From Methanoplanus endosymbiosus (GTDB lineage Archaea; Halobacteriota; Methanomicrobia; Methanomicrobiales; Methanomicrobiaceae), in the NCBI RefSeq assembly GCF_024662215.1, contig NZ_CP096115.1:868001-932000 (forward strand): 64,000 nt of DNA, given 5' to 3'. Of the stretch, positions 4,679 through 52,391 are shown in pieces; position 1 is the first letter of the stretch, and each line of letters begins with the position of its first letter. A model generated the notes under the pieces. The model had not been told where the DNA came from. It did no database searches and worked only from the letters and a program-made list of their open reading frames with translations. Position numbers and translations under genes: made by a program.

Positions 4679-5216
4679 TTACGATTTCATGTTGTTCTTC
4701 AGTTCCTTTCCTTTTCCAGTAAGCCGGTATTTCTGTAGTCTGCTCTTTGGCTTATCGGGAATTGTCATCTCAATTAACCCCTCATTCAGAGCCGGGAGGA
4801 TGTATGCCTTACGGAAATATTTGGCATCCTTTAAACCGAGCATTTCCTGAAGTTCATTTCTTGACATCTCACCATTTAAGGCATTTAGTATTCTCATTAC
4901 TTCAGGGGTGACTTGGGGGTTGACTTGGGGGGCAAAGAAAGTAAGTGTAACATTATGCCCGTCTTCTGACCATTCAGGAATAGGAAGCCCTGATTTTGTG
5001 CATGACTCTCTAATCATTACACTGCCACGTCCTAACCGTTTTCATAAATCCACGAAGATACATAACGTGAGCAATATCCGGATTCCGCAGGACTGAGATA
5101 TGGCCGGATGAGAGTTTTTCCGGAGTGACACCTTCGGGGAAAGAGCCGGAGTTTGTAATTTCGAGGTGGTCCGGGTAGATTTTTCCGGACAGTGACAACT
5201 CTGATTTAATAATCAA
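4679..5216 (-). pseudogene. truncated and frameshifted AlbA-domain putative transcriptional regulator
   Basis: The fragment matches the C-terminal third of the intact gene at 42831-44261. Residues PDHLEITNSGSFPEGVTPEK and the following block correspond to PDRLEITNSGTFPEGVTPEK there, and the end matches almost residue for residue. One extra base near 5020-5030 splits it into two frames (FMKTVRTWQCND-stop against LGRGSVMIRESC). Everything before the LSLSGKIYPDHLEITN segment, including the AlbA nucleic-acid-binding domain, is missing. The breakpoint is a few bases inside the left end of element E1. Confidence 0.8.
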
Positions 5217-5220: not shown

Positions 5221-5230
5221 CTTAGCCGGA
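5221..5230. other. putative attL of element E1
   Basis: CTTAGCCGGA here is repeated at 16546-16555. It lies 75 bases before the integrase start, comparable to the 32-base distance in E2. Read on the reverse strand and continued to the left, the DNA after the core gives codons D-F-D-Y-stop, which would complete the ATPase gene at the other end in frame. The repeat is short, so this is inference from three agreeing clues (repeat, position, restored frame). Confidence 0.45.
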
Positions 5231-5305
5231 CTTCTTTTTTTATTTATATAAAATACGTTAATCCTGCACACCACCATTATATATATCTTCAGCCTATTTT
5301 TTACT

Positions 5306-6586
5306 ATGGTAGGAAAGAAGAACCATCGTTTTCATTCTAAAAACTCAAGTTTTGCAGATTACAGAAAAAACTGTATAGCCGCCGCTTTAGAAGAAAAACG
5401 GATAACTGAAAATGATGCTGACCTTATACAAAAATTTGTCCTGGAAGAGACATCTTCATGCACCCCTGCAAGGAAGTATAAGCTCACTTACGTCCTGGTG
5501 AACTGGAGGCAGTTTCTGCCGGAGTTCAATAAGGTCACACTGACCAGCCTGTTACAGGGGATTGAAAACTTAAAATTTGCAAAAAAACCGGATGGAGAAG
5601 AAGACCTGTATAAACGCAATTCGCAGATTGATTATATCAGAACGATAAAGCGTTTTGTTCTCTGGATGATTGATGAGGAAATTGTTGCAATATCTGAGAA
5701 GAAAGTTCGGTCAAATGTCAAAACCCCGTCATATCGGTCAACGAAAACGAATGAAATGATGCTCTCCTCGGAGGAGATCCGGGCACTCATTGAAGCGTGT
5801 AGATGCAACCGGGACCGGGCATTTATTGCAATGCTCTATGAAAGCGGTTGCCGGGTTGGTGAACTTGCGGATATGACTTGGGGGCAGCTATCCTTTGATG
5901 ACTGGTCGGTAAAGTTAATCATCACTGGAGAAAACAAGACCGGAAAAACGCGGTATATCCCTTTGGTAATGTCGAGGGCGTATTTGGCAGCCTGGAAGGA
6001 CGAGTATTATCACCTTTCAAAAACTGAAAAATTCCTGAATAAATGGCCGGAAGGAATGACACCCGACAGTTTTCTATTCTTAACAAATAATCGCTACCAG
6101 CCAATGCACTATTGCAGCACAGTTAAACATCTCCGGAAGCTGGCAGAGCGTGCAGGGATTGAGAAACATATAACTCTGCATCTATTCAGGCATTCAAGGA
6201 TTACCCACCTGTTACAGCAGGGAGTTTCAGAAAGTATCATAAAATCGTTGATGTGGGGCAATCAATGCACCGACATGCTGGGAACATACGGCCATCTCTC
6301 CAACGCAGACACAGATGACGCAATGGCCAAATTGGCAGGTATTAAGCTTTCATCCGGACGGTGCAGAAGGAAAACGCTTGAACCGTTACAGTGCAGCAGG
6401 TGCCAGACGATTAACCCGCCGACACAAAGATTTTGTGGAACATGCGGGCTTGAGCTGACAGTTGAGGCGGTTGATGAGGCAAAGATTGCCAAAGAGCAGG
6501 CGGAGATGTTGCCGGAGTATCAGGAGCTCATGAAAGAGTTTGAAGATAAACTTCGGCGGCTGAGTGCGGCGGGGAATTATGACTGA
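5306..6586 (+). CDS. int: tyrosine recombinase (integrase) of E1 with C-terminal zinc ribbon
   Basis: A 426-residue integrase. An N-terminal SAM-like core-binding domain (about 20-145) is followed by the catalytic domain: Arg in YESGCRVGELADMTW, Lys in GKTRYIPL, the HxxR box in LHLFRHSRITHLL, and the nucleophilic Tyr in MLGTYGHLS. A zinc ribbon with two CxxC pairs follows (LQCSRC near residue 365 and RFCGTCGLEL), then a charged helix. The E2 integrase has the same arrangement but is divergent in sequence. The gene lies just inside the left end of E1 and should catalyse its integration and excision. A TATA-like stretch (ATTATATATATC) precedes the ATG. Confidence 0.95.
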   Translation: MVGKKNHRFHSKNSSFADYRKNCIAAALEEKRITENDADLIQKFVLEETSSCTPARKYKLTYVLVNWRQFLPEFNKVTLTSLLQGIENLKFAKKPDGEEDLYKRNSQIDYIRTIKRFVLWMIDEEIVAISEKKVRSNVKTPSYRSTKTNEMMLSSEEIRALIEACRCNRDRAFIAMLYESGCRVGELADMTWGQLSFDDWSVKLIITGENKTGKTRYIPLVMSRAYLAAWKDEYYHLSKTEKFLNKWPEGMTPDSFLFLTNNRYQPMHYCSTVKHLRKLAERAGIEKHITLHLFRHSRITHLLQQGVSESIIKSLMWGNQCTDMLGTYGHLSNADTDDAMAKLAGIKLSSGRCRRKTLEPLQCSRCQTINPPTQRFCGTCGLELTVEAVDEAKIAKEQAEMLPEYQELMKEFEDKLRRLSAAGNYD

Positions 6587-6769
6587 TTGCAATCATTGTG
6601 CGCTTTATGATACAAAAGTGTCTATTAAACGGTGTTTTGCTGAATTATTAGACAGTTTATTTACTAATTTGATAATAAAAATGTTAATTACCACGAGTAA
6701 TTTTTTATACTATCGAGGAGTTATTAGCTTTAACCCTGTTCAAGTGGACGGCGGTAATCGGAGGAAAAA

Positions 6770-6991
6770 ATGATAATTACGTATGCGAATGGCAAGCGGT
6801 TCATGCACACAAATGTCTCTGTGGATGAGCATCTACACAAATTTGCAAGAGAAAATAAGATCTCCATATCTGGGATTTTGAGAAAAGCCCTGGAAGAAGA
6901 ATATGAAAAGGCGAATCAGCACCCAGGTCGCCAAACTCATGGTGCTGATTCATCTACTGACCACTTAAATTTAAAGGAAGGTTCAGTATGA
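6770..6991 (+). CDS. ribbon-helix-helix-like small protein
   Basis: A 73-residue protein whose middle (TNVSVDEHLHKFARENKIS, then ISGILRKALEEEYEK) fits a ribbon-helix-helix fold as in CcdA-type antitoxins: a strand, a helix with HKFARENKI, a turn and a second helix. The C-terminal 20 residues are polar and likely disordered. It is preceded by a strong ribosome binding site (GGAGGAAAAA), and its stop overlaps the start of the next gene (ATGA), so it leads the replication operon. It may act as its transcriptional regulator; the fold assignment is by eye. Confidence 0.6.
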   Translation: MIITYANGKRFMHTNVSVDEHLHKFARENKISISGILRKALEEEYEKANQHPGRQTHGADSSTDHLNLKEGSV

Positions 6992-7179
6992 ATACTGTTT
7001 TACACAGGTGTAATAATAAAGGTTTCCATTGCAGTAATCCTGCTGAGATTCCAAAACAGATGATTGAAAAATTCCGGATAAAAAGGGATGTTCTTGAAAA
7101 TCTGGATGGCCTTCACAGATTAGCAGCCGAACAGGCTATCAGGAATGGTACCTGGATTCTGGTTGATGGAGATGACTGA
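6988..7179 (+). CDS. small hypothetical protein (63 aa)
   Basis: A 63-residue protein with an N-terminal part containing two cysteines and a histidine pair (HRCNNKGFHCSNPAEIP) that could bind a metal, followed by a helical part (RDVLENLDGLHRLAAEQAI) and the ending TWILVDGDD. Its start overlaps the end of the preceding gene by four bases, so the two are probably co-translated. No E2 counterpart is seen. Function unknown. Confidence 0.6.
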   Translation: MNTVLHRCNNKGFHCSNPAEIPKQMIEKFRIKRDVLENLDGLHRLAAEQAIRNGTWILVDGDD

Positions 7180-7256
7180 ATGTCAATCTGTACAATCAGA
7201 ACAGAATACATTCTGTCCGGAAATATATATATATTTTTGTATTCCGGAGGTGTTTT

Positions 7257-7598
7257 TTGATGGCTACCAGAAAATACCCGGCACCACACATTACAACATC
7301 AGCAGATAAGGATGTTGTGATCTTCTGCGATGGGGATTTTTTCATAGTGAATAATGTGCAGTTGCAGCATTTTTTGCCGTATGGTGGAATCTGTTCGGCA
7401 TATTCAAACGTTGATGATTCGGTTGCTGTAATCCGGACACATGGACATGAGGGGTTTTACATCGATGTTTTCGACAGAACTTTTCATGTGACAATAAAAG
7501 ACTTTTTAGCTGTTCGAAGTGGAAAAAGAGATAAAAAAATCCTTCACGAAGTTTTTACCTTTTCACGGGGGCATGGAAAATGTTATCCGGAGAAATGA
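7257..7598 (+). CDS. hypothetical protein (113 aa) preceding the replication gene
   Basis: A mostly beta-strand protein of 113 residues (start at 7257 or at the ATG three bases later) with several aromatic and acidic strands: DVVIFCDGDFFIVNNVQLQH, YGGICSAYSN and GFYIDVFDRTFHVTI. It ends in a basic tail. A ribosome binding site (CCGGAGGTG) precedes it, and its last 19 bases overlap the start of the large primase gene. Position and overlap suggest an accessory replication or regulatory role, but I do not recognise the family. Confidence 0.65.
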   Translation: MMATRKYPAPHITTSADKDVVIFCDGDFFIVNNVQLQHFLPYGGICSAYSNVDDSVAVIRTHGHEGFYIDVFDRTFHVTIKDFLAVRSGKRDKKILHEVFTFSRGHGKCYPEK

Positions 7599-10261
7599 CC
7601 GCTGAACAGCGTGAGGAAATCATAAAAGCCCTGAAAATATTTAAAAATCCGGGTGAATTGTTCGAGATACGGGCAATTTTTCCAAATAACAAAATATATT
7701 CAGGAATTTATGATAATTTTGAAGAGGCTTCGGATGATGTTTTAAATCTGGTTGACCATGAGGCAAAAGGGACATACTTTATTTTTAATGAGATTAACAA
7801 ATCCGGAAAAAAAGCAGGACATGGTTTAGCACCAAGTAGCAAAACAACCAGGGATGCAGACATAATAACCCGCAGGTGGATCCTTCTGGATATCGACCCT
7901 GACCACGGTGCAGGAACAAATGCAACCGATGAAGAGAAGGCCGATGCCCTTAAGGTTCTGAATAAGAGTTTATTGTTCTTGAGAATGGCGGGATTCCCGG
8001 AACCTGTAAAGGTTGATTCAGGAAATGGCTATCATGCCTATTTCAAAGTAAATCTGCCAAATGATACGGAATCAAGGCAATTGGTCAAGGATTTTCTATA
8101 TGTTCTTGATGGTAAATTTTCGGGGAAAGCTAAAGTTGATACTGGGGTTTTTAACTCATCAAGAATCTCAAAACTACCTGGAACACATACGCGGAAAGGC
8201 CTGAATACAGCGGAAAGACCACAAAGAATAAGCCGGATTATATCAGTTCCGGAAAAAATCGAATTGGTAACCCCTGATGCAATAAAGGCAGTTGCTCAGC
8301 TTTCTTCTTCCGGAAAAAAAGATTACCAGAAGAAAAAGGGGCACAGGAAAGTTATAATTGAAGAATTTAACAAGAAATACCTTGCTTCTGAAGTTTTAAA
8401 CTGGTATTGTCAGAGGGAAGGAGAGCGGTTTATCAGCCCAAATTCCAAGTCTCAGACACCTGGAATTGTAATTCTTGACAACGGCAGATTTTACTCACAT
8501 CATGATTCTGATAATCTGGACCCTGACCATTCAAACTCTCCGTATGATGCAATGCTGGAATATGGTTATTCCGGCAATGATGAGAAAGCCCTGGAGAAAG
8601 CCGCTGAGCTGTTGAAAATGCAGCTGATAAAAAAATCAGCCGAAGAGAAACCACAGCTCACACCGGAAAAAAAAGAAGAAATTCTGAAAGATTTTTCAGA
8701 AAAAAATGAATCCGGTTTAACTCCGGTTACATTCCTTCAGGAGCAGGTCAGAGATACAGCAGCCACTGTCTTATCAGAACTACACCGGCACAACAATCCT
8801 CCATCAATTTTTACGCGGCATAATCAGTTGGTCAGGGTGATCCGTGGCAGAGAAGGCAGACCGACAGTAGAGCAGCTTACACGGACTCATATGAGGTATA
8901 AGATGGAGCGTTCTGTTGACTGGGTAGCAATCCGCAAAAACGGAAAAGAATTAACTGCTGTTCCTGATGTGTGCCCGTGGCCTGTTGTGGATGATCTTTT
9001 ATCCATGCCTCCGGATGAATGGCCGTTTCCTAACCTGAAGGGAATAAGTGAAGTTCCAATTTTTCATCCGGACGGTTCTATTCACACAGTGCAGGGTTAT
9101 GATCCTGAATCTGAATATTATTTTTGCCCAGAAGAAGGCTTTACTATGCCGGATATTCCGGAAAATCCAACAGAAGAAGATGTTAAAAAATCAGTTGGTT
9201 TTTATAAGGACCTCTTTACAGATTTCCCGTTTGTTGATGAATGCAGCCGGACAAACGTCATTGCTGCGGTGTTTACTGCTGTTCTCAGGAAATATGTTGG
9301 GGAAATATGCCCGGCTTTTGTAGTAGATAAACCACAGGCGGGCACGGGAGCGAGTTTGCTGCAAAAAATTGTCGGCATTATTGCAACAGGTGATATCCCA
9401 GCTTCAAGAAATTTTGGAGAAACTGAGGAATTGCGCAAGGAAATTTTTACAGCGTTAAGAGATGGTGATAATATCATATTTTTCGATAACCTAAGCAGAA
9501 CTATTTCAGCTGGAATTTTGGCAAAGGAATTAACTTCACCGGAAATTGGGGGGAGAATATTGGGTAAATCCGAAAACATGAAATTAAAAAATGATGCCTT
9601 CTGGATGTTGAATGGCAACAATGTTGCCATTGGTGGAGACCTGGCAAGGCGAATATGGATTTCAAAGATTGATGCAAAGGTTGCCATTCCCTGGCAGAGA
9701 ACCGGATTTAAACATGAAAATATTAATGAGTATATTTTACAGAATCGGGGAACAGCCCTTGCAGCCGTTTACACAATAGCCCGTGCATGGGTTAAAGCTG
9801 GTTGCCCCACACCAAAGAAAATACCAAAGGTGGGAAGCTTTGAAAAATGGCGTGATATTATTGGCGGAATTGTTGAATTTTCCGGATTAAAGGATTTCAT
9901 GAAAAATTCAGATGCTGTTTATTTTGAAGCTGATTCTGAACTTGAAGAGTGGGAGGATTTCTTAAGTTTCCTGCACAAACGCTTTGATGAGCCGTGGACT
10001 GTGGCAAAGATTATTGATGATTTAAAAGCTGACCATGCAGAAAAACAGAGTCTGGAGATTATTCACCATCTGCCAACAGAGATGGCTGATGCCTGGGCAA
10101 GTAAGAAATCAGCATCATCCCGGAGCATTGCAAAAGAATTGCGAAAGCAGAAGGATAGACGTTGGCCTGGAGGGTGGATTCTCCGGGAATCTGGTTTAAC
10201 CACTGACAACAAAAAACACTGGTTTGTTGAGCACAACGGACCACAGACAAAAATATTCTAA
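7580..10261 (+). CDS. primase-polymerase (AEP) fused to an AAA+/SF3-like helicase domain, E1 replication protein
   Basis: An 893-residue replication protein. The N-terminal third has archaeo-eukaryotic primase motifs: I, LLDIDPDHG (Asp104, Asp106); II, SGNGYH (147-152, catalytic His); III, VDTGVFNSSRISKLPGT (Asp187 onward). A linker leads to a C-terminal ATPase domain (about 550-720) with a P-loop-like PQAGTGASLL near residue 585, Walker B IIFFDN near 632, a sensor-like MLNGNN near 674 and an arginine-finger-like RRIW near 690. The P-loop has Ala where the catalytic Lys is expected. The last 150 residues are probably a winged helix. It overlaps the upstream gene and ends directly before the large inverted repeat, a likely origin. 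E2 has no homologue. Confidence 0.85.
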   Translation: MLSGEMTAEQREEIIKALKIFKNPGELFEIRAIFPNNKIYSGIYDNFEEASDDVLNLVDHEAKGTYFIFNEINKSGKKAGHGLAPSSKTTRDADIITRRWILLDIDPDHGAGTNATDEEKADALKVLNKSLLFLRMAGFPEPVKVDSGNGYHAYFKVNLPNDTESRQLVKDFLYVLDGKFSGKAKVDTGVFNSSRISKLPGTHTRKGLNTAERPQRISRIISVPEKIELVTPDAIKAVAQLSSSGKKDYQKKKGHRKVIIEEFNKKYLASEVLNWYCQREGERFISPNSKSQTPGIVILDNGRFYSHHDSDNLDPDHSNSPYDAMLEYGYSGNDEKALEKAAELLKMQLIKKSAEEKPQLTPEKKEEILKDFSEKNESGLTPVTFLQEQVRDTAATVLSELHRHNNPPSIFTRHNQLVRVIRGREGRPTVEQLTRTHMRYKMERSVDWVAIRKNGKELTAVPDVCPWPVVDDLLSMPPDEWPFPNLKGISEVPIFHPDGSIHTVQGYDPESEYYFCPEEGFTMPDIPENPTEEDVKKSVGFYKDLFTDFPFVDECSRTNVIAAVFTAVLRKYVGEICPAFVVDKPQAGTGASLLQKIVGIIATGDIPASRNFGETEELRKEIFTALRDGDNIIFFDNLSRTISAGILAKELTSPEIGGRILGKSENMKLKNDAFWMLNGNNVAIGGDLARRIWISKIDAKVAIPWQRTGFKHENINEYILQNRGTALAAVYTIARAWVKAGCPTPKKIPKVGSFEKWRDIIGGIVEFSGLKDFMKNSDAVYFEADSELEEWEDFLSFLHKRFDEPWTVAKIIDDLKADHAEKQSLEIIHHLPTEMADAWASKKSASSRSIAKELRKQKDRRWPGGWILRESGLTTDNKKHWFVEHNGPQTKIF

Positions 10262-10676
10262 CATTTTTTCCTTTTCTTAAAAAAATAACTTTTGTAAAAA
10301 AAATGTAAAATTTTAAAAAATTTTGTAAATTTTTTGTTTTTTTTCATATAGAATTGCTTAACTTTTTTAAAAAAATCATAACTTTGTGTTGACTTAAAAA
10401 TTAGATAATTAGGTAAATTAGGTAAAATCCCTCCTTACGCGGGGGCGGAAAAAAAGTTTTTTTTTTTATTATTACATAAGTGCAAAAAAAAAAAAAAAAA
10501 AATTAAAAATATACGTATGAGTTATGGTGGGAATCAACCTAATTTACCTAATTATCTAATTTTTAAGTCAACACAAAGTTATAGATTTTTAAAAAAAGTT
10601 AAGTAATTCTATATTTAAAAAGACAAAAATTTACAAAATTTTACAAAAATTTTAAAAAAAATTTTAAAAATTTAAA
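10262..10676. repeat. large AT-rich inverted repeat between convergent genes, candidate E1 replication origin
   Basis: Two arms of about 110-130 bases face each other. A perfect 45-bp core lies at 10378-10422 and, reversed, at 10538-10582; outside it the arms continue with imperfect matches (for example ATAGAATTGCTTAACTTT against its reversed partner with one difference). The centre (10423-10537) has a GC-rich patch (ACGCGGGGGCGG), T runs and an uninterrupted A run of about 19. The region lies at the 3' ends of the primase gene and the reverse-strand gene at 10672, so it may also end both transcripts. Its size and place beside the replication gene suggest an origin. Confidence 0.7.
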
Positions 10677-11103
10677 ACTGGGGTAAACATGATCCTTTTA
10701 CACAAAACGCATCTTCAGGAAGTGACTTTATTTCATCCGGAAATCTCACCCTTTTTTTAACTGTGTCAAAATTGAAATTTCTATCAATCGCAAAGATCAG
10801 ATGATTCCGTTCTGAAACTTCTAATCCCAACCGAGCAAAATCACCCCTCACCCCAGGCCATTCATCAGCAACCAGGAGAAATTCTTTCAGCAGTGCAAGA
10901 GCTGCAAACTCCCGCTGTTCAGCACAAAAAATCTTCATAGCCATTTTCTGATTTGGCACAATGTGCAGCTGATAATTTGTTGACTGGTTTTTAATCAGCA
11001 TTTCAAAATTTTTAAAAAAATCAATCTGCAGCCGAACGGGATAATTTTTCACTACCACATTCAGACCAGTCAAAATTCCAATTTTGTTGAATTTCATAAC
11101 CAT
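10672..11103 (-). CDS. conserved element protein (143 aa), homologue of E2 52392-52850
   Basis: A 143-residue protein shared by both elements at low identity but with a common pattern: an N-terminal MVMK start, beta-rich first half, a PNQKMAMK segment (PNEKMFAR in E2), a helix LALLKEFLLVADEWPGVRGD (LLLELLRTADTWSGVHCD in E2), LGLEVSERN (LGLGMAERT) and a C-terminal part ending near a cysteine. It is not recognised. On the reverse strand it lies downstream of the AbrB-like gene, separated by a conserved non-coding leader. A palindrome AACCAATGGTT sits over its start, possibly an operator. Being conserved where replication genes were swapped, it probably serves a maintenance or regulatory function. 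Confidence 0.75.
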   Translation of the reverse strand: MVMKFNKIGILTGLNVVVKNYPVRLQIDFFKNFEMLIKNQSTNYQLHIVPNQKMAMKIFCAEQREFAALALLKEFLLVADEWPGVRGDFARLGLEVSERNHLIFAIDRNFNFDTVKKRVRFPDEIKSLPEDAFCVKGSCLPQF

Positions 11104-11301
11104 TGGTTATTTTTTTAATATAAAATCATTACCAAAAGTGATATTTGATAATTTCGCATCAGAGCCACACCAGGCCACCTAAAATCTATTTTAGATATTT
11201 GATGGATAAAACACACAGTGCAACCTGAGAAAAGACAACACAGGCAAAGTGTGAAGGTCAAAACTTACCATTGGTGATTATGAATTACTCATATAGATAA
11301 T
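11104..11301 (-). promoter_or_regulatory. conserved non-coding leader between AbrB-like and 143-aa genes
   Basis: About 130 of these bases are conserved with 52851-53048 of E2, including CAGAGCCACACCA, AAACACACAG, GAGAAAAGA and TGAAGGTCAAAA-type blocks, yet no reading frame is conserved. Such conservation in a spacer points to a shared promoter, 5' leader or small RNA. The orientation is assumed from the reverse-strand gene that follows. No terminator or named riboswitch is recognised. Confidence 0.45.
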
Positions 11302-11475
11302 TCAGTCATCGGCCGGACATTTTTCAATAATAAGCCGTTGACCATCAACAGTAACCCGGATTTTTTCACCTGGTGTGAATGGATAGGCATCATCACTTGT
11401 AATCAATGCAGGTATCGAAACGTAGTGTGTCCGTGATGAGGACATTTTTATAACTTTACCAAAACCTTGCTTCAT
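11302..11475 (-). CDS. AbrB/SpoVT-like DNA-binding protein (57 aa)
   Basis: A short gene starting at 11475 that encodes MKQGFGKVIKMSSSRTHYVS, then IPALITSDDAYPFTPGEKIR and VTVDGQRLIIEKC: the swapped-hairpin AbrB layout of strand, IPxxI turn, PGExIRV strand and hairpin. It is 57 residues, close to the minimal length of the family. Its E2 twin (53049-53222) is nearly identical. It is transcribed away from the small acidic protein gene, with a palindromic spacer between the two starts, so it is likely a repressor of both divergent transcripts. Confidence 0.8.
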   Translation of the reverse strand: MKQGFGKVIKMSSSRTHYVSIPALITSDDAYPFTPGEKIRVTVDGQRLIIEKCPADD

Positions 11476-11551
11476 AATTCACTTAACAAATAGGTTAGTA
11501 AATTATATATACTAATTGCTCTAATAAGTGTATCACTTAATATAATGTTAA
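11476..11551. promoter_or_regulatory. divergent promoter/operator between the AbrB-like gene and the 162-aa gene
   Basis: The spacer starts with CACTTAAC and ends with its reverse GTTAAGTG; inside lies an imperfect palindrome around TTAGTA ... TACTAA with a TATATATA centre that can serve as TATA box. The same layout is at 53223-53310 in E2 with only a few differences. Nested palindromes next to an AbrB-like gene suggest its binding sites. Confidence 0.6.
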
Positions 11552-12040
11552 GTGGTGAAAAACATGGTTGATGAAAAACAAATTTCCAGTCTGGAAGCAC
11601 GACTGCAAAAAATTGAGAACCGCATATTTGGATTAGTTGAAAAGTTCCGACCGGCGCATTATGATGAATACCAAAATCTGCATGCGAAAGGTGAATTCTT
11701 CCCGGAGATGAATGATATTTTCCTGGCTTGTGAAGGTATGACGATTGAGAGCTTGCAGGTTATGGACCGGCAAAGCCAAACCTGTATGTTTAACGAACTT
11801 TCGCTTATAAGTGAGATTGAAGAGATTACGACTTGTGCAGTCACCGTAAAAAACCCGGACGGCACACAAACAATCTATCCAGGTCGCATTGAGTTTATCA
11901 GGCACGTGGATCCAGAGGATGGTGAATATGAGCATCGCTGGTTTACAGTTGATCTTGCAAACACATTGACCCCAAAACAGAAGGGGATGAACGCCAGTGA
12001 CATAACATCAAAGGCTGTTAAGACAATGTCCAGTGAATAA
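11552..12040 (+). CDS. conserved element protein with N-terminal coiled coil (162 aa)
   Basis: A 162-residue acidic protein. The first 30 residues form a likely coiled coil (ISSLEARLQKIENRIFGLVE); the middle has the sequence QTCMFNELSLIS, and a beta part follows (TTCAVTVKNPDGTQTIYPG). E2 has two adjacent genes of the same family (53311 and 53679), which share EQTCFFEE- and KYPDGT-type segments. It opens the rightward transcript, opposite the AbrB-like repressor. The start could be the GTG at 11552 or the ATG at 11564. No known domain is recognised. Confidence 0.75.
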   Translation: MVKNMVDEKQISSLEARLQKIENRIFGLVEKFRPAHYDEYQNLHAKGEFFPEMNDIFLACEGMTIESLQVMDRQSQTCMFNELSLISEIEEITTCAVTVKNPDGTQTIYPGRIEFIRHVDPEDGEYEHRWFTVDLANTLTPKQKGMNASDITSKAVKTMSSE

Positions 12041-12462
12041 ACTAAAATCTCCTAAAAAACATTCACTCTTTTCCAAATATCAAAACGTAACATCTCATTA
12101 CCCCTGAAAGAAATTCGGCTCAAAATTTTTACTGTACAAGTTATTTTAATAGTCGTCGCCCGCGTGCGAAAAAAAACCCGCTCTCTTCATTCAGGTAATC
12201 TGAAATTTGCTCTTGATATTTCCTCACACATCAAAAACATCTGGATATCAACATATTACCCCTGAAAGAAATTCGGCTCAAAAATTTTCTGTACAAGTTA
12301 TTTTAACAGTCGCCGCCCACGTGCGAAAAAAAAATGCATAAATGCCTTTAAGTATATTGCAATTTTAATAAAAATATAATAATTATTTAATAGATAACAA
12401 TTTTATATGTTGTTGACCTTAATATTATTTAAACATAACAAAATTTTTTATGGAGGATTGAG
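12041..12462. repeat. non-coding region with two 80-bp direct repeats, upstream of the membrane-protein operon
   Basis: Copies at 12097-12176 and 12255-12334 both run from ATTACCCCTGAAAGAAATTC through CTGTACAAGTTATTTTAA to GTGCGAAAAAAAA and differ at few positions. A partial third copy is in E2 (about 54253-54321). After the second copy, about 120 bases (12326-12444) are essentially identical to 54311-54430 of E2, with TATA-like stretches, and lead to the start of the 92-aa gene. I see no gene here. The last part probably holds the operon promoter; the repeats could be protein-binding or processing sites. Confidence 0.65.
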
Positions 12463-12741
12463 ATGAGGAATCGTTTTCAAAATATAATCGTGCTGCTGCT
12501 TTTGTCAGCTGCAATTGTGCCAGCTGCAAGTGCTGCATTTCAGGTTGTGCCCTGGGTTGAGCCGACACCAGAACCAACACCTGTTGAGGAAGAACCACTG
12601 CCAATTATTCCGGCGCTGATGCTTATTGGCGGAATTAGTCTAATAGGATATTTTTTTATCCTGCCAAAATATGAAGCTAATCAAAGAAAGAAGGCTTTTG
12701 AAAAGATACGGGCGGAATCTGCACGTTTAAGGGATATTTGA
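12463..12741 (+). CDS. small signal-peptide/transmembrane protein (92 aa)
   Basis: The N terminus is a signal peptide (NIIVLLLLSAAIVPAASAA, cut probably after ASA), followed by a proline-rich outside segment (EPTPEPTPVEEEP), one membrane helix (IIPALMLIGGISLIGYFFIL) and a basic cytoplasmic tail starting LPKYEANQRKK. The E2 homologue at 54449 has the same arrangement and the shared motif FFLPKYEA or FILPKYEA. A GGAGG ribosome binding site precedes the ATG. It heads a three-gene operon conserved in both elements and is probably a structural or assembly membrane protein. Confidence 0.75.
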   Translation: MRNRFQNIIVLLLLSAAIVPAASAAFQVVPWVEPTPEPTPVEEEPLPIIPALMLIGGISLIGYFFILPKYEANQRKKAFEKIRAESARLRDI

Positions 12742-12752
12742 TGGGGATTTAA

Positions 12753-13580
12753 TTGATTCGCGAATTAATAGCCCTATTTTTTATTTTTTCGTTAACCGGG
12801 ATTTCGTGCGCTGCAACTGACGAAAGAATTTTGGATGGTGACTTTTCAGATGGTTTTGATTTTTGGCAGCGTGCCCGCCTGGACGGCGGTGCATTCCCTG
12901 TTATGTCAGACGGACAGGTTTATTTTGAAACGGAAAGCTCAGGCTTCAGCAGTATTTCACAGACAGATGTCGATTTAACAGGTGTTGGAATTGTAACTTT
13001 CACATGGTCCGGTTCTGGTTCTGGCAATTTTAAAATTCTTCTGGATCTCACAGAAATTTACTCAGAAGATGTGAATTTCTGTTCTGGAAACTCACAGGTA
13101 GATGTAAGTGATTTTTCAGGGACATACACTCTATATTTCAGGCTAGTCTCTGATTCAACATCAGAAGTTTATTTGGATGATGTTTCGGCGAAAACATCCT
13201 CACTTTACAGACCGACCGCCTCGGCTACCATCGCCATGATGAATGAAGACTCATCCGATATAATTATGTCTTATCTGGGAATTGACCAGCCTTATATAAG
13301 CGAAGATTCTACCGGCATGAATCTGTCTGCACTTGCAGGTGAGGTTTTCGGGGTGTATTCTGATTCTGGCTTAGGGCCGTTTGCGTTGTTGATTGTGTTT
13401 TGTATGCCGTTTGTTGGTCTGTGGATTATGCAGCGTGATATGATTATTCCGGGCGGAATTGGTATTTTGTTCTCCGGTTTCGTGCTTGTACGGCTTCCGG
13501 CTGATTTCCAGGGAGTGGCGGTTATGATGATCGCTGTCTGTGTTACAGCTGTGATTTATTCGATTTATGTAAGGAGGTAA
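12753..13580 (+). CDS. secreted beta-domain protein with C-terminal membrane helices (275 aa)
   Basis: A signal peptide (LIALFFIFSLTGISCAATDE) precedes a beta-sandwich-like domain of about 125 residues (ILDGDFSDGFDFWQRARLDG to VYLDDVSAKT) that resembles jelly-roll carbohydrate-binding modules. A linker and two or three membrane helices follow (GPFALLIVFCMPFVGLWIM, MIIPGGIGILFSGFVLVRL, VAVMMIAVCVTAVIYSIYV), ending in RR. The start is a TTG at 12753. The E2 homologue (54748) is about 90 percent identical by eye. The outside domain plus membrane anchor suggests a surface or spike-like protein, but no virion function can be proved from sequence. Confidence 0.75.
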   Translation: MIRELIALFFIFSLTGISCAATDERILDGDFSDGFDFWQRARLDGGAFPVMSDGQVYFETESSGFSSISQTDVDLTGVGIVTFTWSGSGSGNFKILLDLTEIYSEDVNFCSGNSQVDVSDFSGTYTLYFRLVSDSTSEVYLDDVSAKTSSLYRPTASATIAMMNEDSSDIIMSYLGIDQPYISEDSTGMNLSALAGEVFGVYSDSGLGPFALLIVFCMPFVGLWIMQRDMIIPGGIGILFSGFVLVRLPADFQGVAVMMIAVCVTAVIYSIYVRR

Positions 13581-13583
13581 AAA

Positions 13584-15647
13584 ATGGCATTTGACAATTT
13601 TAACTACAAACACAACAACAGGGGAGCCTCAGACCCGGCACTTAAAGTACCCTCTGCAACCGGAGGTCAGCCATCACAGGCCGACATAAACCGGCAGAAG
13701 AAGAAGGAGTCAATCTTTGCCGCACGTAAAGAGCGTGAGGAACGAAAAAAGCGGGAAAAAGCACAGGAGACATTCATCAACCGCGCTTACAACCCAAGAA
13801 CCGGTGAGCATTACGAGCTTAAGAAGCCCGAAGATAAAGACTCAGATTTCTCCGGGTTCTCTCAGTTTGCCGCACGGTCCGGAATTAAAATATCATCACA
13901 GTTTGGTCAGGCAAACCAGAAAATCAACCAGACGTCTGACATAGATCCTATTTTAAAAAAATTGATGACAACGACCAGTGATGTTCTCGGCGGAACCGCC
14001 CAGGTGGCCGGCTATGCCCCGGCAACAGTTGAAAAGGTATTCCAGGTTGCCGGGAAGAAAGGTGTCACCGGTGCGGCAGGAACTGTTGTGGGCGCTACAC
14101 AAACCGGACTGCAACACCAGGCAAAAACAGCTGCTGAAAATCCGGTTGACACTCTCTTACAGCTTGCCGTTGGCGGTGTGATCCTCGGTGGTGCACGTGC
14201 AGCTGCAAGACCCATAACAGCACCCTTCAGATCATACGGCACTGAAGCGGGAATCATCATCAGAGCACCCAAAACAGATGCAGCTGCAATTCACGCAACA
14301 TCAAACATTGGTCGCCTTACAAAAGGCGTAAACAGTAAATTCCTGAAAGACCCCGACCTGACAAAAATAAGAAATTTAGGTCCGCAATCCGGGAAAACCC
14401 TTGAAAGCATTCTTTCAAATGAGCCACATTCATTGTATGGGACCGTAACAACGTACGGCCAGATGCCTAAACCGCCCCGTGTAACATCTGATTTAGACGT
14501 TTTTGTGAAAAATCCGGCTGCTTTTAATGAAAACGTGCTTTCAAAACTTGGCAAAAATTATGAAATTAAGGGTTCCGGTATCGTGAATAAGGTAGGGTCT
14601 GAAAAAACTGCTCATGCTGTGGATACCCACCCAATCCCGGATGGTTATCCGGGATTTAAACAACCCAAAACAGTAAAAACAAATATTTACGCCGGAGACA
14701 AAGCGCCCAAATTGCCTTTTGACTGGATGCCTGATAAACTGCTTAAGGCTGACAAACTTACACAGGAACCCTTATACAGTCAGGCCGGCCGGAAGGCTGC
14801 CGGAGTTATGGGTGGTCCAGAAGGGAAACTTAAATGGAAATATGGTCCTGCCCCACACAGGGGAAAAGACCTTGTGGACCTCGTGGATGTAAGCCAGTAC
14901 CTTGCAGAACAGAAGAGGCAGACAATAAACCCCTTTAAGAAGGTTCAGGCGGTCAGGCTACAGAAATCAATTGATACCCTGAAGGGCACCGGAATGTATA
15001 AAGATGCCCTTAAAGCATCGCAGAAGGAAATTACAGGGAAACCCGGAGAACTTACAATAAATATCAATAAAAGTCCGAGTCCTGGTAAAATCAATGTGAT
15101 AAAACCTGTATTCTCACCATCACCAACAATACCCGGAAACAGGCGGCCATCGCCCACACCGTCAAAAACGAAAGGAAAAAGAGAGGAACCTTCTTCCCCT
15201 CCAACCGGTGGAGGTGGTGGAGGAAGAGATTATGATTTTGTTGGTAAAGGATCCCCAAAGGTTCGTGACCCGCTTGTAGGTTGGCGCCCAATAATAACGA
15301 GTCCAAGACCTGTGAAGGACCCGGACGGTTCAAAAGTCCCTGACCCGCTTATAGGTGGAAACCCGGTAATACCTATCCCTGTGGTTCCTATCCCTGTTAT
15401 TCCATCCCCGACCGGGGATGATAGTGCTGGAAGACGCGCAAGTAATGCAAAATATCCAAGGTACCATTCCGGAAAGAAGAAAAGTACGAAATCTAAAAAA
15501 TCTAAACGGAGCGTTGATGATTGGTTTAGGACGAATCCTATGCCTGGTGTTATATCCGGGAAAACACCCAAAATGCCAACGTTTAAATTAAAAACCCCTG
15601 CTTTTAAATCACCATTTGTAAAAAAAACCGGGAGAAAAAAGAAGTGA
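13584..15647 (+). CDS. large conserved element protein (687 aa) with nucleotidyltransferase-like core and basic Pro-rich tail
   Basis: It starts three bases after the preceding gene, with ribosome binding site AAGGAGG. Regions: a polar, lysine-rich N terminus (1-75); an Ala/Gly-rich stretch with hydrophobic parts (about 120-215, for example LLQLAVGGVILGGARAAA); a core (about 229-530) with GTVTTYGQMPKPPRVTSDLD then VFV, reminiscent of the GS...SDxDV site of nucleotidyltransferases; a proline- and glycine-rich linker; and a Lys-rich end (KKTGRKKK). The core is almost identical at DNA level to E2 (55590-57695), while the ends are diverged. No known family is recognised; the nucleotidyltransferase resemblance is only a motif. 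Confidence 0.7.
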   Translation: MAFDNFNYKHNNRGASDPALKVPSATGGQPSQADINRQKKKESIFAARKEREERKKREKAQETFINRAYNPRTGEHYELKKPEDKDSDFSGFSQFAARSGIKISSQFGQANQKINQTSDIDPILKKLMTTTSDVLGGTAQVAGYAPATVEKVFQVAGKKGVTGAAGTVVGATQTGLQHQAKTAAENPVDTLLQLAVGGVILGGARAAARPITAPFRSYGTEAGIIIRAPKTDAAAIHATSNIGRLTKGVNSKFLKDPDLTKIRNLGPQSGKTLESILSNEPHSLYGTVTTYGQMPKPPRVTSDLDVFVKNPAAFNENVLSKLGKNYEIKGSGIVNKVGSEKTAHAVDTHPIPDGYPGFKQPKTVKTNIYAGDKAPKLPFDWMPDKLLKADKLTQEPLYSQAGRKAAGVMGGPEGKLKWKYGPAPHRGKDLVDLVDVSQYLAEQKRQTINPFKKVQAVRLQKSIDTLKGTGMYKDALKASQKEITGKPGELTININKSPSPGKINVIKPVFSPSPTIPGNRRPSPTPSKTKGKREEPSSPPTGGGGGGRDYDFVGKGSPKVRDPLVGWRPIITSPRPVKDPDGSKVPDPLIGGNPVIPIPVVPIPVIPSPTGDDSAGRRASNAKYPRYHSGKKKSTKSKKSKRSVDDWFRTNPMPGVISGKTPKMPTFKLKTPAFKSPFVKKTGRKKK

Positions 15648-15729
15648 ACCGGATATGTATAAAATAATATTTTTTTCCACCATAATAATCAACAGTAATA
15701 TTAATATGATCATGGGTGAATGTTCTATC

Positions 15730-15820
15730 GCGGAACGGCATTTCTCCGGGTGATGTTTAACCACAGCCTTTCATCATCGGACCCGCCGGATTCAGGCCGT
15801 TGTTGCCTGAACGTCTCCGC
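15730..15820. ncRNA. candidate structured RNA with covarying hairpin (E1 copy)
   Basis: The segment folds as a three-way shape: an outer stem GCGGA (15730-15734) with TCCGC (15816-15820), a stem TGATG (15751-15755) with CATCA (15772-15776), and a hairpin TTCAGGC (15791-15797), loop CGTTGTT, GCCTGAA (15805-15811). In E2 (57770-57870) the same stems occur; in the last hairpin the T-A pair 15792/15810 has become G-C, and the outer stem is longer (8 bp). The loop is unchanged. There is no conserved reading frame. Which strand is transcribed cannot be decided. Confidence 0.55.
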
Positions 15821-15943
15821 ACAGATATGATTTCTCCTGAGGTTTTCATATATAATATCTCGAAAAAATCAAAAATTCTCAAACATCCTTCTTGCAGAGG
15901 AAATTCAAACCAATCTTATAGTCATGTTTCAAAATAAAATGCG

Positions 15944-16075
15944 ATACAGGGCCGTACAGAACGGCCTGTGTAAGGTTCTTAACGGCGTTTAGGGTTTTAT
16001 TACCATAACCAAAACAAAACCCTTCTCATCCTTTCTTCATGATTTTTTTGTTAGTGGTAAACTATTGCCACCAAC
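15944..16075. other. three further conserved hairpins downstream of the structured RNA (E1)
   Basis: ATACAGG-GCCGT (15944-15955) pairs with ACGG-CCTGTGT (15961-15971); AGGGTTTT (15991-15998) pairs with AAAACCCT (16016-16023) and is followed by a pyrimidine-rich stretch with seven Ts; GTTAGTGG (16050-16057) pairs with CCACCAAC (16068-16075) with one mismatch. All three are also at 57985-58114 in E2, with changed bases on both sides of the first stem. The second could act as a terminator. No gene is seen between 15648 and 16261. Confidence 0.5.
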
Positions 16076-16083
16076 CAGGTATG

Positions 16084-16257
16084 AACTGTTTCCAAAATGG
16101 AAAGAGGTCACAATGACCTTTTGCCAATAACTCAAAATGGCAAGATGCAACAATTGCCCCTTGCCAAAAAAAGCAGATCCGCCACAATGACGACTCTGCA
16201 AAAGGACAAAATGTCCCTTTGATAACTGCACCATATTGTTAACGTTAACAAAATGGT
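16084..16257. repeat. cluster of short palindromes near the right end of E1
   Basis: At least six adjacent inverted repeats of 15-30 bases follow each other: TTTCC/GGAAA at 16089-16103, AGGTCA/TGACCT at 16105-16119, TTGCCA/TGGCAA at 16121-16143, GGCAAG with CTTGCC at about 16139-16165, GCAGA/TCTGC at 16173-16199, AAAGGACA/TGTCC at about 16200-16217, and GTTAACGTTAAC at 16238-16249. Their loops repeatedly contain AAAATG, ACAATG or CAATTG. A rearranged set is in E2 (58120-58392). No coding is likely here. Confidence 0.6.
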
Positions 16258-16261
16258 TATT

Positions 16262-16429
16262 CTATTCTTCCGGCAGGTCATTCACAAACCACCCACAAAA
16301 GGGACACCACCAGCCTACCGGAAGAAATGTTTGTTTCCCGTTAACCTTTGGTCTGATGTAAGTTCGATTCATACATGCCGCACCTTCACACATTGGGTTA
16401 TCGCATCTTCTTAATTTTGTGCGTGCCAT
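16262..16429 (-). CDS. small zinc-binding protein (55 aa)
   Basis: The product reads MARTKLRRCDNPMCEGAACM, then NRTYIRPKVNGKQTFLPVGW and WCPFCGWFVNDLPEE. Two CxxC-type pairs (CDNPMC and CPFC) make a zinc ribbon. I choose the ATG at 16427-16429 because the E2 homologue (58394-58558) starts at the equivalent residue; an upstream ATG at 16453 would add eight residues. It is the last gene before the right attachment site in both elements and is transcribed toward the element interior. It may bind DNA or assist the integrase, but there is no direct evidence. Confidence 0.75.
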   Translation of the reverse strand: MARTKLRRCDNPMCEGAACMNRTYIRPKVNGKQTFLPVGWWCPFCGWFVNDLPEE

Positions 16430-16527
16430 AGTAACTTTTAATATGAAAGACACAAATATAAATTTATCTCAGAAATATGATAATTTTTAAAAATAATCTA
16501 ATATTAAATATAAGCAGGATTACGACA

Positions 16528-17742
16528 TTAAAACGCTAAATAGTTCTTAGCCGGAATTATGCTTATCTTTCTGCCATCAACAGTAATTTCATCCTTCTGG
16601 TTAAATGTCAGGATATAACCCTCATCCAGACCAAACTTCTCCATCGCCTCCAAAAGTCCGTTTATTTCCCGGCCCTTATTCCGGTTGTTAAGATCATAGC
16701 ATACCTGAACCGCTTTTGTTATCTTTGTATTTTCCTTTACCAGAAAATCGCATTCACCCTTCTCCCTGAAATAGAAGACCTCACGGTACCTCTTCCGCAG
16801 TTCCAGAAATACATAATTTTCAAGGAGTCTGCCATAATCATCTGAAAATCCGGTAGAATTCGCCCGGATAAAACCATTGTCAACCGCATACACTTTCTTT
16901 GGATTAATCTGACGGCTTTTTATCGAATAACTGAATCTTGGCAGTGTAAATATAATGTAACTGTCCTCAAGATAGTCCACATATGAGGCAATGGTTGTAA
17001 CAGAGCCAATGGACGAAAATGTCTTCCGGAGTTTTGACAGGGTAAACTCACGTGAGATATTGGCAAGCATATACACTGCAATCTCAGTAATTACTCCCGG
17101 ATTTTTGATATTGTACCTGAACAGAATATCCCTTGCAATAATATCCAGAAGAAGGTTTTGCAGGACCTCATCCATGCCGGTTCTCAGGTATTCGGGAAAT
17201 CCTCCGGTGAAGAGATAACTATGGAAATTTTCCTCAGAGTCATCTTTTTTCATGAATTTCAGATATTCCCGGTACGAAAAAGGAAACAGTTCAAGCCTGA
17301 GGTTTCTTCCGGTTAGTTTTGTACCAGGCTCACGGCTTAACAGAGATGCATTGGAACCTGTAATTATCACTTTTCTGTTGTTGTCCAGAAGGTATCTGAC
17401 ATAGGATTCCCAGCCGGAGAGGTTCTGGATTTCATCAAAATAATAGAGTTCATTCTCTCCGTAGTTCTCTTCAAAGACCTCTTCAAGAATTTCAAAATCA
17501 TTCAGCTCAAATTCGCTCAGGCGTGGGTCCTCAAAATTCAGATAAAAATATCCATCTTCACCTTTCATGGACTGGAGAAGAAGAGTGCTTTTGCCGCATC
17601 TCCTGATCCCGGATATTACTATGGCAAAGTTCTCCAGAGGTCTGATCTTTTTAAGGCTCTCTCTTGATGTTCCCGGACTGCGGTGTTCAATGCCGCTTCT
17701 CTGTGAAGCGGCAATCCTTCCAAGTTCATCCTTAAGGATCAT
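16528..17742 (-). CDS. archaeal AAA ATPase with DUF4143 nuclease-like domain; target gene of E1 integration
   Basis: A 404-residue ATPase with Walker A GIRRCGKSTLLLQ (about 44-56), Walker B YYFDEIQN, the sensor VIITGSNASLLSRE, the middle winged part, and a C-terminal DUF4143 restriction-like domain (FLELRKRYREVFYFREKGEC followed by DFLV and AVQVCYD). Such proteins are frequent and scattered in archaea; their cellular role is not established. The last codons (NYLAF) after the shared core CCGGCTAAG come from the right end of E1; at the left end of E1 the same core is followed in frame by D-F-D-Y-stop, so the element appears to have inserted into the 3' end and supplied a new terminus. Confidence 0.85.
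   Translation of the reverse strand: MILKDELGRIAASQRSGIEHRSPGTSRESLKKIRPLENFAIVISGIRRCGKSTLLLQSMKGEDGYFYLNFEDPRLSEFELNDFEILEEVFEENYGENELYYFDEIQNLSGWESYVRYLLDNNRKVIITGSNASLLSREPGTKLTGRNLRLELFPFSYREYLKFMKKDDSEENFHSYLFTGGFPEYLRTGMDEVLQNLLLDIIARDILFRYNIKNPGVITEIAVYMLANISREFTLSKLRKTFSSIGSVTTIASYVDYLEDSYIIFTLPRFSYSIKSRQINPKKVYAVDNGFIRANSTGFSDDYGRLLENYVFLELRKRYREVFYFREKGECDFLVKENTKITKAVQVCYDLNNRNKGREINGLLEAMEKFGLDEGYILTFNQKDEITVDGRKISIIPAKNYLAF
16546..16555. other. putative attR of element E1 within the ATPase gene
   Basis: This is the second copy of CTTAGCCGGA (first at 5221-5230), lying inside the last ten codons of the ATPase gene on the reverse strand. The distance from the small zinc protein gene start (117 bases) resembles that in E2 (96 bases to the tRNA repeat). 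The repeat is only 10 bp, so confidence is moderate. Confidence 0.45.
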
Positions 17743-42830: not shown

Positions 42831-44261
42831 TCATATTTCCATGCTGCTCTTCAGTTCCCTGCCTCTTTCAGTCAGCCGGTATTTCTGTAGTCTGCTCTTT
42901 GGCCTATCAGGTATTGTCATCTCAATTAACCCCTCATTCAGAGCAGGGAGGATGTATGCCTTCCGGAAATTTTTAGAGTCTTTTAAACTGAGCTTGTCCT
43001 GAAGTTCATTTCTTGACATCTCACCATTTAAGGCATTTATCATTCTCATCACTTCAGGAGTGACTTGGGGGGTGACATAGGGGGTGACATAGGGGGTGAC
43101 ATAGGGGGTAAAGAAAGTCAGTGTAACATTATGGCCGTCTTCTGACCATTTCGGAAGAGGAAGGCCCGATTCTGTGCATGACTCTCTAATCATTACACTG
43201 CCACGTCCTAACTTTTCCATAAATCCACGGATATACAGAACATGGGCAATATCAGGATTTCTCAGAACTGAGATATGGCCGGTTGAGAGTTTTTCCGGAG
43301 TGACACCTTCAGGAAAAGTGCCGGAGTTTGTAATTTCAAGACGGTCTGGATAAACGTTGACAAAAATCCCTCCTGAAAAACTGCTGTAATCCCGGTGAAC
43401 AAAAGCATTCACAAGTCCTTCACGGATAGCAAAAGGAGGATATAAAGACTCATCCCGGCGTTTCAGATTTCCGGAACTGAAATGTGAAATTGTCTGCGTA
43501 TTCCTTTGAATAAAGCGATATAGATCATCTAAAACAGGCAAAAGAGGCCCTTCAAAAGATTTCATATCATTATATTTATCTCCACCTTTATCTGTGGAAT
43601 AACATGCAGCACGGACACGAATCTGTGGAAATCTCATTGCAGGATTTTTCCCAAAGAGGACATCTCCCCCGTTTGTCAGCCGCCCATATCTGCAAACAGA
43701 AAAATCCTCAAGAATCATGTTCAGATCATTAACAGAACGAAAATTAAAACCGGAACCTGCATCCATTACAGCATTATGGACCTCTGTCAGGTCCAGATCA
43801 TCACCCGGATCTGCTGTTGAAAAACGGCGTTCCCATCTTTCAGGCTCAATCTGTTTTCTGAGGATCATATCCCTGATAATGTCAATATCAGCTTTATCTG
43901 TGGAATTATTTTTCCGGAGATAAAATATATCCCGGAATGAATAGGGGAGATCCTTTCCCGCCGGAACTTCAATTGAGATCACTTTTTTCCCTTCAATATC
44001 GACCGTATCAACTGAAATTAGTGCCTTAGGAGATATTTTTTCCTGAAGTACCTGTACAATATTTCCTGCTCCGGAATCTGAATCATCAACACCAACAATA
44101 TTTCCTGTCTCATCAACACCGCATACAATATAACCACCGGAAGTATTCAGAAAACCGCAGACAGTTTTACCAATAGCGTTGATGTCCTGGCAATCCTTTT
44201 TAAATTCGATATTTTGCCCTTCTCCAAGCATGAGGTAATCTCTGATATTATCCTGAATCAT
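42831..44261 (-). CDS. AlbA-domain ATP-binding transcriptional-regulator-like protein (476 aa)
   Basis: The N-terminal AlbA_2 (Schlafen-type) domain has GEGQNIEFKKDCQDINAIGK, then GGYIVCGVDETGNIVGV; the middle HATPase_c_4 region has IREGLVNAFVHRDYSSF and PDRLEITNSGTFPEGVTPEK; the end is a winged helix (NGEMSRNELQDKLSLKDSKN). Between them is a tandem VTPY repeat (43070-43105; four near-identical 12-base units). Its start overlaps the end of the DUF4062 gene by four bases. AlbA_2 domains bind nucleic acid and occur in antiviral Schlafen-like proteins. The truncated relative is at 4679-5216. Confidence 0.85.
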   Translation of the reverse strand: MIQDNIRDYLMLGEGQNIEFKKDCQDINAIGKTVCGFLNTSGGYIVCGVDETGNIVGVDDSDSGAGNIVQVLQEKISPKALISVDTVDIEGKKVISIEVPAGKDLPYSFRDIFYLRKNNSTDKADIDIIRDMILRKQIEPERWERRFSTADPGDDLDLTEVHNAVMDAGSGFNFRSVNDLNMILEDFSVCRYGRLTNGGDVLFGKNPAMRFPQIRVRAACYSTDKGGDKYNDMKSFEGPLLPVLDDLYRFIQRNTQTISHFSSGNLKRRDESLYPPFAIREGLVNAFVHRDYSSFSGGIFVNVYPDRLEITNSGTFPEGVTPEKLSTGHISVLRNPDIAHVLYIRGFMEKLGRGSVMIRESCTESGLPLPKWSEDGHNVTLTFFTPYVTPYVTPYVTPQVTPEVMRMINALNGEMSRNELQDKLSLKDSKNFRKAYILPALNEGLIEMTIPDRPKSRLQKYRLTERGRELKSSMEI

Positions 44262-45246: not shown

Positions 45247-45266
45247 AGAGCCGCTGGGGGGACTTG
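45247..45266. other. attL of element E2
   Basis: These 20 bases equal 58654-58673 and correspond to the last part of the tRNA-Thr gene (acceptor and half of the T arm) plus two bases beyond. The match ends on both sides (G/A before, C/A after). Confidence 0.9.
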
Positions 45267-45298
45267 CTCAAAATGTTCATATCCCCTGAAGTAGATTA

Positions 45299-47417: not shown

Positions 47418-47568
47418 CGGATATGTAAAATGTACATGATATATTATAAAATCATATGCTTTTTGTTATATACCACACAGAGAAGATGTTTTTGTTACAG
47501 TATAAATCACCCATGATATAGTATATCACCCATTTTAGATAGGATTATATAGTTTACTTGCGTATTTT
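47418..47568. promoter_or_regulatory. divergent promoter region with repeated ATCACCCAT
   Basis: ATCACCCAT occurs at about 47507-47515 and 47526-47534 (19 bases apart), between the starts of the winged-helix gene and the AbrB-like gene. AT-rich TATA-like DNA (TTATATA) is on both sides. The spaced direct repeat suggests an operator for one of the two neighbours. Confidence 0.5.
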
Positions 47569-47826
47569 ATGATCATGGAACGATTTGTGAATGTGCTTAA
47601 ATGTTATAAAAATGGTGGTTCTGTTGTTGTGCGGATACCAAAAGAGATTTGCACAACAGTGAAAATAAACGCAGGAGATAGATGGATTATGAAAATAGAC
47701 GAATCTAACAGATTAATTTTGGAAAAACTTGAATTTCAGGAGATGGCAACCAAACCTTCCACAGTGACGGGAGCCATCCCCCAGCGCCAACAGGTTACTA
47801 ATTCAGTAATCCAGGAGGCATTATAA
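47569..47826 (+). CDS. AbrB/MazE-like DNA-binding protein (85 aa)
   Basis: The first 50 residues form a swapped-hairpin AbrB domain (CYKNGGSVVVRIPKEICTTV then KINAGDRWIMKIDES); the C-terminal part is polar with QRQQVTNSV. It is different in sequence from the other AbrB-like protein of E2 at 53049. Its stop is directly followed by the next start (TAAATG), so it leads an operon. Likely a regulator of the left operon. Confidence 0.75.
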   Translation: MIMERFVNVLKCYKNGGSVVVRIPKEICTTVKINAGDRWIMKIDESNRLILEKLEFQEMATKPSTVTGAIPQRQQVTNSVIQEAL

Positions 47827-47997
47827 ATGATGCTTCACCAGCCAAAATACTTATCGAAGTTCCTATACACTGACCGGGAGACAATTAACAGCTTGCCATT
47901 TATGGAAAAGATGATGGCTGAATTCTTAATCGAGGTCGGGGATATCATTTTAAACGAAGAAGAGCAGAAACAGAATTTTGGGAGGGTTGCCAATTGA
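47827..47997 (+). CDS. small hypothetical protein (56 aa)
   Basis: A 56-residue protein, MMLHQPKYLSKFLYTDRETI, NSLPFMEKMMAEFLIEVGDI and ILNEEEQKQNFGRVAN, helical and acidic. It starts right after the stop of the AbrB-like gene, and its stop overlaps the TTG start of the next gene. The tight packing supports it as a real gene despite its size. Function unknown. Confidence 0.55.
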   Translation: MMLHQPKYLSKFLYTDRETINSLPFMEKMMAEFLIEVGDIILNEEEQKQNFGRVAN

Positions 47998-52390: not shown

Positions 52391-52391
52391 T

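Follow-up and report, generated by a model that had tools for sequence, protein, structure and literature searches.

A conserved, non-coding and hairpin-rich module in three related integrated elements of a methanogen

The genome of Methanoplanus endosymbiosus (GCF_024662215.1, contig NZ_CP096115.1) raises the question of whether a short segment, present twice in the 64,000-nt window analysed here (positions 868,001-932,000 of the forward strand; window positions are used below unless another locus is named), is a structured RNA and, if so, to what it belongs. An earlier note had described this segment as a three-stem fold that keeps all its stems while the sequence varies, and had concluded that selection is on the fold. 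Reading and aligning the sequences directly, we found the two copies exactly where they had been placed, at 15730-15820 and 57770-57870, both on the + strand, and a whole-genome search recovered a third one (G000:C1:1469610-1469701). The three copies lie in three related integrated elements, E1, E2 and E3.

In E1, the fold consists of three stems, P1, P2 and P3: an outer stem (P1, 15730-15734/15816-15820), a middle arm (P2a, 15736-15739/15785-15788, and P2c, 15751-15755/15772-15776) and a last hairpin (P3, 15791-15797/15805-15811, loop 15798-15804). P1 (57770-57777/57863-57870) and P3 (57838-57844/57852-57858) are found again in E2, where the middle arm is weak. The last hairpin fully bears out the initial description: its CGTTGTT loop is identical in E1 and E2 (57845-57851 in the latter), and the pair T15792-A15810 of E1 is G57839-C57857 in E2. 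The outer stem indeed measures 5 bp in E1 (GCGGA/TCCGC) and 8 bp in E2 (TGTGCGGA/TCCGCACA), to which E3 adds a version of 7 bp (CGCGGAA/TTCCGCG). The statement that all stems are kept was too strong, because the middle arm of E2 has lost two pairs in its lower part and has a third unpaired, with pair probabilities of 0.03-0.28 in E2's own ensemble vs 0.74-0.99 in E1 and E3 (the same calculation underrates P1 of E2, as an alignment gap falls inside that stem). Over the three copies, 95.9% of the cells are paired, 20 of the 25 pairs are invariant and one pair carries a double change; the three-way fold also conserves unpaired letters, e.g. CATTTC, GACCCGCCGGAT and CGTTGTT. The earlier note had taken further homologues lacking additional compensatory pairs as evidence against it; the third copy supplies such a pair only in part, since the outer-stem pair that is U-A in E2 and C-G in E3 is a mismatched C.A (unpaired) in E1. 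The segment does not appear to be a tRNA or tRNA-like: neither ARAGORN nor tRNA models matched at the fold, and the last hairpin, with its 7 bp and 7-nt loop, is devoid of the T-loop consensus.

The compensatory change proves little alone: at least one double change arose in 34% of column-shuffled alignments, so that the single one in the fold is not significant by itself. Compared with column shuffles, the conserved folding energy of the exact segment gave p 0.023 and z -2.45, and 110-column windows over the fold gave z -3.55 (+ strand) and -3.84 (- strand), to be read against a coding background with a mean of -0.6 and a standard deviation of 1.05 (n=48 windows), in which one window went as low as -3.66. 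Single copies also folded better than their shuffles (z -2.13 for E1, -2.33 for E2). These modest scores, together with the frequency of double changes in shuffles, make the fold likely but unproven, in agreement with published cautions on covariation drawn from few, related sequences (PMC11234323). Conservation of the segment is clearer. Between E1 and E2, identity over the fold reaches 0.80, compared with 0.60 for the gap that precedes it, 0.54 for the AT-rich sequence that follows and 0.67 for the four-fold sites of the upstream gene; the excess has Fisher p values of 1e-4 against the flanks and 0.012 against the four-fold sites. No conserved reading frame runs through the copies: their stops fall in different frames, and insertions or deletions of 1, 2 and 4 nt separate them. 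Of the proposal that selection is on the fold, the sequences thus support the conservation of a segment that is non-coding and prone to structure; the step from there to an RNA fold under selection went too far, given one double change, a middle arm that fails in E2 and three copies that all come from one genome.

The structure signal becomes stronger downstream. On the + strand of E1, the fold is followed by hairpin 5 (15944-15971, ATACAGGGCCGT-ACAGA-ACGGCCTGTGT), in which a C-G pair of E1 is G-C in E2 and E3, hairpin 6 (15991-16023, AGGGTTTT/AAAACCCT), in which one pair is G-C in E2 and T-A in E3, and hairpin 7 (16049-16076, GTTAGTGGT...GCCACCAAC). Then begins a series of triloop palindromes, assigned to neither strand, the first of which are TGGAAAGAGGTCA-CAA-TGACCTTTTGCCA at 16098-16126, with two double changes relative to E2, and TGGCAAGATGCAA-CAA-TTGCCCCTTGCCA at 16138-16166, with three. 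E2 has an array of such triloop palindromes at 58123-58379 (again strandless), enclosed by a 16-bp perfect inverted repeat, CAGAGTCCTCACAATG (58123-58138)/CATTGTGAGGACTCTG (58364-58379). In all, palindromes of ~29 nt with CAA, AAA or TTG centres and variable, compensating arms are clustered at 16098-16260 in E1, 58123-58379 in E2 and 14969-15090 of the E3 locus (L051), and these clusters are the strongest structure signal of the region. RNAalifold finds the downstream hairpins and palindromes with their double changes; against column shuffles, the middle hairpins reach z -5.6 and the palindromes z -12, although the middle hairpins have no more double changes than the shuffles do. Counted on three sequences that all come from one genome, the 86 pairs of the module include 11 with a double change vs an average of 5.6 when partners are shuffled (one shuffle in 500 was as high), most of them in the downstream hairpins, where they are clearer than within the reported fold. 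Folded as single sequences (490-620 nt), the whole modules reach z -5.2 (E1), -8.5 (E2) and -6.4 (E3). Because the stronger signal lies downstream, the reported 90 nt are best read as one end, and the least certain part, of a structured module of 0.33-0.55 kb located between an ORF of ~690 amino acids and a small convergent gene.

The elements that carry this module are plausible proviruses. E1 extends on the + strand from about 5221 to 16555, limits that are tentative because the putative flanking repeats (CTTAGCCGGA at 5221 and 16546) are only 10 nt long. E2 (45247-58673, +) is bounded by two direct copies of a 20-nt sequence (AGAGCCGCTGGGGGGACTTG, starting at 45247 and 58654), the second of which is the 3' end of a tRNA-Thr, and E3, found elsewhere in the same genome (L051), by an 11-nt repeat (CCCCCTCAGCG) shared with a tRNA-Ser. 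The gene order is common to the three: a tyrosine integrase at the left end (Pfam PF00589 at 5306-6586, +, in E1 and at 45299-46519, +, in E2), replication genes, small membrane proteins, the ~690-aa protein, the fold, more hairpins and a small convergent ORF with CxxC motifs. The replication genes are of two kinds, a primase-helicase-like protein in E1 and a UvrD-like helicase with a DnaG-like primase in E2 and E3. A candidate for an origin or a control region in E1 is a 152-nt imperfect inverted repeat (80%) at 10286-10674, which adjoins the primase-like gene where the element is richest in AT (GC as low as 14%). A very AT-rich stretch just 5' of the membrane-protein genes, partly repeated in E1, is 94% identical between E1 (12109-12444) and E2 (54254-54431). 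Outside the elements, a full Schlafen/AlbA_2-type protein beside E2 (42831-44261) and a C-terminal fragment of one beside E1 (4679-5017) are 89% identical, which suggests that the flanks were duplicated too.

E3 is a mosaic. Its left half, with the integration and replication genes, matches E2 (94%), whereas the right half matches E1 (96%) and includes the fold as well as the ~690-aa gene; the junction falls within a ~460-nt stretch common to the three elements. The fold is thus inherited together with the ~690-aa gene block and not with the replication or integrase genes. Within the E1-like half, a patch corresponding to E1 15821-16080 is only 77-81% identical to E1 whereas both of its sides are 94-100% identical; by its sequence, this patch was probably derived from a third lineage.

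The upstream partner of the module is a conserved gene. The earlier note had considered the neighbouring reading frames as not conserved, which is wrong on this side: the 687-aa ORF that immediately precedes the fold in E1 (13584-15647, +) is 82% identical to its 701-aa homologue in E2 (55590-57695, +) and 98% identical to that of E3 (L051 12465-14528), divergence being limited to the C-terminal end, and its stop lies about 80 nt before the fold. None of the three proteins matched a known family. Five homologues share invariant G286, D303, D305 and D347 residues in a G-T...DxD...D arrangement. The five best Foldseek matches of a 687-aa AlphaFold model, itself of low confidence like the others obtained for this protein, were nucleotidyltransferase-fold proteins at non-significant scores (E 0.17-0.94). 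A nucleotidyltransferase-like core, as modelled, is thus possible. More distant relatives occur in genomes G053 and G062 (37-38% identity) and, weakly, in G104, a draft genome where the gene (L128, G104:C29) is broken by many inserted GGGGGG or CCCCCC runs that look like assembly artefacts. On the other side of the module, the small convergent ORF of E1 (16262-16429, -), with its E2 counterpart at 58394-58558, encodes two CxxC-type motifs and is zinc-ribbon-like.

Homologues of the module were sought well beyond these elements. The covariance-model search advocated in the earlier note returned, over 232 genomes of the order, only the three known copies, all other matches to the model of the fold (R1) having E values of at least 0.088; a search set at class level gave that same set. 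BLAST of the 102-nt fold against the same 232 genomes gave short chance matches only, the best inside an htpX-like coding sequence. A model of the downstream hairpins (R2) had a weak match in G102 (E 4e-5), which we rejected because it depends on a single, unrelated palindrome and lacks a helix. Neither model matched in the genomes with relatives of the elements (G053, G062, G104, G183 and G073), the neighbourhoods of the ~690-aa relatives included. Pattern scans of IMG/VR gave 0 matches, and no homologue was found in phage and plasmid collections or by protein-guided scans of viral and genome contigs. Two further candidates were set aside as chance: 61 scattered bacterial matches to a 17-mer hairpin core in GTDB contigs, and transposase starts in G186 and G202 that match hairpin 7 over 19 nt. 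Finally, the 4227 Rfam models at gathering thresholds detected three tRNAs only in the window, and nothing near threshold over the fold of E1 or E2.

Could the module be transcribed as an RNA of its own? Between the 687-aa ORF and the fold, a T7 tract on the + strand (15670-15676), also present in E3 and reduced to T4 in E2, is a candidate 3' end for the mRNA of the ORF. A TATA-like box follows (TTAATATG, 15701-15708, +; TTTATTTT at 57744 in E2), about 25 nt before the fold; it is weak and is not the best-scoring box of the region, and no TATA motif converged when a promoter matrix was built from the regions upstream of tRNAs. Farther on, another T7 tract (16043-16049, +; T6 in E2, at 58082, and in E3) is a candidate + strand 3' end that would give a transcript of ~320 nt. 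The + strand T-tracts flank this ~320-nt unit in E1 and E3, the distal one being present in all three elements, and archaeal termination uses U-tracts of four to seven without the need for a hairpin (PMC8716108). The positions of the tracts and of the box may thus favour the + strand. Folding energies and z-scores are alike on both strands, and when G-U pairs were disallowed in folding, neither strand was preferred (G.U:A.C cells 5:3 for + and 4:4 for -), which leaves room for a DNA-level function or a minus-strand RNA.

From these elements of sequence, we tentatively favour, at somewhat less than an even chance, a structured RNA encoded by the element, read from the + strand and linked to the ~690-aa gene block. 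The fold forms the 5' part of a non-coding, hairpin-rich module, from 15730 to about 16050 or 16260 in E1, which stands at the end of the ~690-aa gene block in each of the three elements. The sequences show that the module is non-coding, exists in three copies, is conserved in structure throughout and is co-inherited with that block, whereas its transcription, strand, limits and any function are inferred. The RNA would start near 15730, past the TATA-like box, and would end at the conserved T6-7 tract near 16049 or continue through the palindromes. It may act with the ~690-aa gene block, either by binding a protein or by lending stability as a 3' end. Against such an RNA stand the instability of the E2 middle arm, the insignificance of the fold's one double change taken alone, the mediocre TATA-like box, the lack of a strand signal and the fact that all copies are in one genome, with none elsewhere in the searches.

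Three other readings have to be weighed. The fold may be what any GC-rich stretch of 90 nt would form, the copies being alike through recent common descent or recombination and the compensatory pair being a coincidence. The shuffled alignments, the z of about -2.5 for the exact segment, the one coding window of 48 that reached -3.66 and the failure of the middle arm in E2 are all consistent with this; but the fold is more conserved than both its flanks and the four-fold sites, the chance that two substitutions placed at random in the 21-nt last hairpin hit the same pair and restore it is about 0.011, and strong structure carries on downstream, so that we consider coincidence very unlikely. An ordinary 3' UTR that yields no RNA of its own, and in which hairpins and T-tracts end or stabilise two mRNAs, one from the ~690-aa ORF (+) and the other from the small zinc-ribbon-like ORF (-), would explain why the region lies exactly between convergent ORFs, why a T7 follows the ORF in E1 and E3 with T6-7 tracts further on, and why the hairpins fold on both strands. 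We nevertheless regard it as unlikely: about 615 nt is long for such a role, a three-way fold with conserved unpaired letters exceeds the needs of a terminator, and archaeal terminators can dispense with hairpins.

The third alternative, rather doubtful in our opinion yet the most serious, is a DNA-level site, with the palindromes, and perhaps the fold too, being recognised in the form of DNA, by a bound protein or as hairpin-forming single-stranded DNA, for example for the packaging, recombination or maintenance of the element. It is favoured by the very nature of the strongest signal, short and (near-)perfect palindromes with 3-nt centres, by the absence of strand asymmetry between G.U and A.C, and by a pattern search that found the pattern of the 29-nt palindromes, in this genome, only in E1, E2 and E3. 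The arms, on the other hand, differ from palindrome to palindrome, unlike the iterons of a single protein, and the extremes of cumulative GC skew and the most AT-rich stretches are elsewhere in the elements. As E3 combines E2-like replication genes with an E1-like fold, the module is not inherited with the former and is not a simple origin; a replication origin is thus supported neither by the skew and AT extremes nor by inheritance.

If the preferred reading, an element-encoded RNA, is pushed further, it is tempting to speculate that the module specifies an abundant RNA of ~320-550 nt, an archaeal counterpart of the large phage RNAs. It would be linked to the ~690-aa gene block of a methanogen provirus of a new kind, and might be a partner of the adjacent protein with its possible nucleotidyltransferase-like core, a possibility that its sequence evokes but that we hold quite improbable. 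Bacterial phages carry large structured RNAs that are still a puzzle, and a comparable candidate in archaeal elements would extend the question to archaea. The module exists as three natural variants in one strain, and the E3 mosaic already separates it from replication and integration.

Known systems resemble the module in part. Like archaeal 3' UTR hairpins and U-tract terminators (aCPSF1-type ends), it follows a gene and has + strand T6-7 tracts; unlike hairpin-independent archaeal termination, it conserves several hairpins and a three-way fold. The palindrome arrays of plasmids and viruses (iteron- or operator-like DNA) recall its cluster of short palindromes adjoining the end of the element, but the arms of the module vary with compensating changes and it is not linked to replication genes. 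With regard to GOLLD and ROOL, the module does not match their Rfam covariance models, occurs in an archaeon in only three known copies and shows no pseudoknotted core; it is also shorter, at about 0.3-0.55 kb, than the many GOLLD members that exceed 800 nt. Like them, it is non-coding, rich in predicted structure and carried by integrated mobile elements, and the E2 module is near the tRNA att site of its element, just as GOLLD and ROOL are often found near tRNA islands (PMC12286853).
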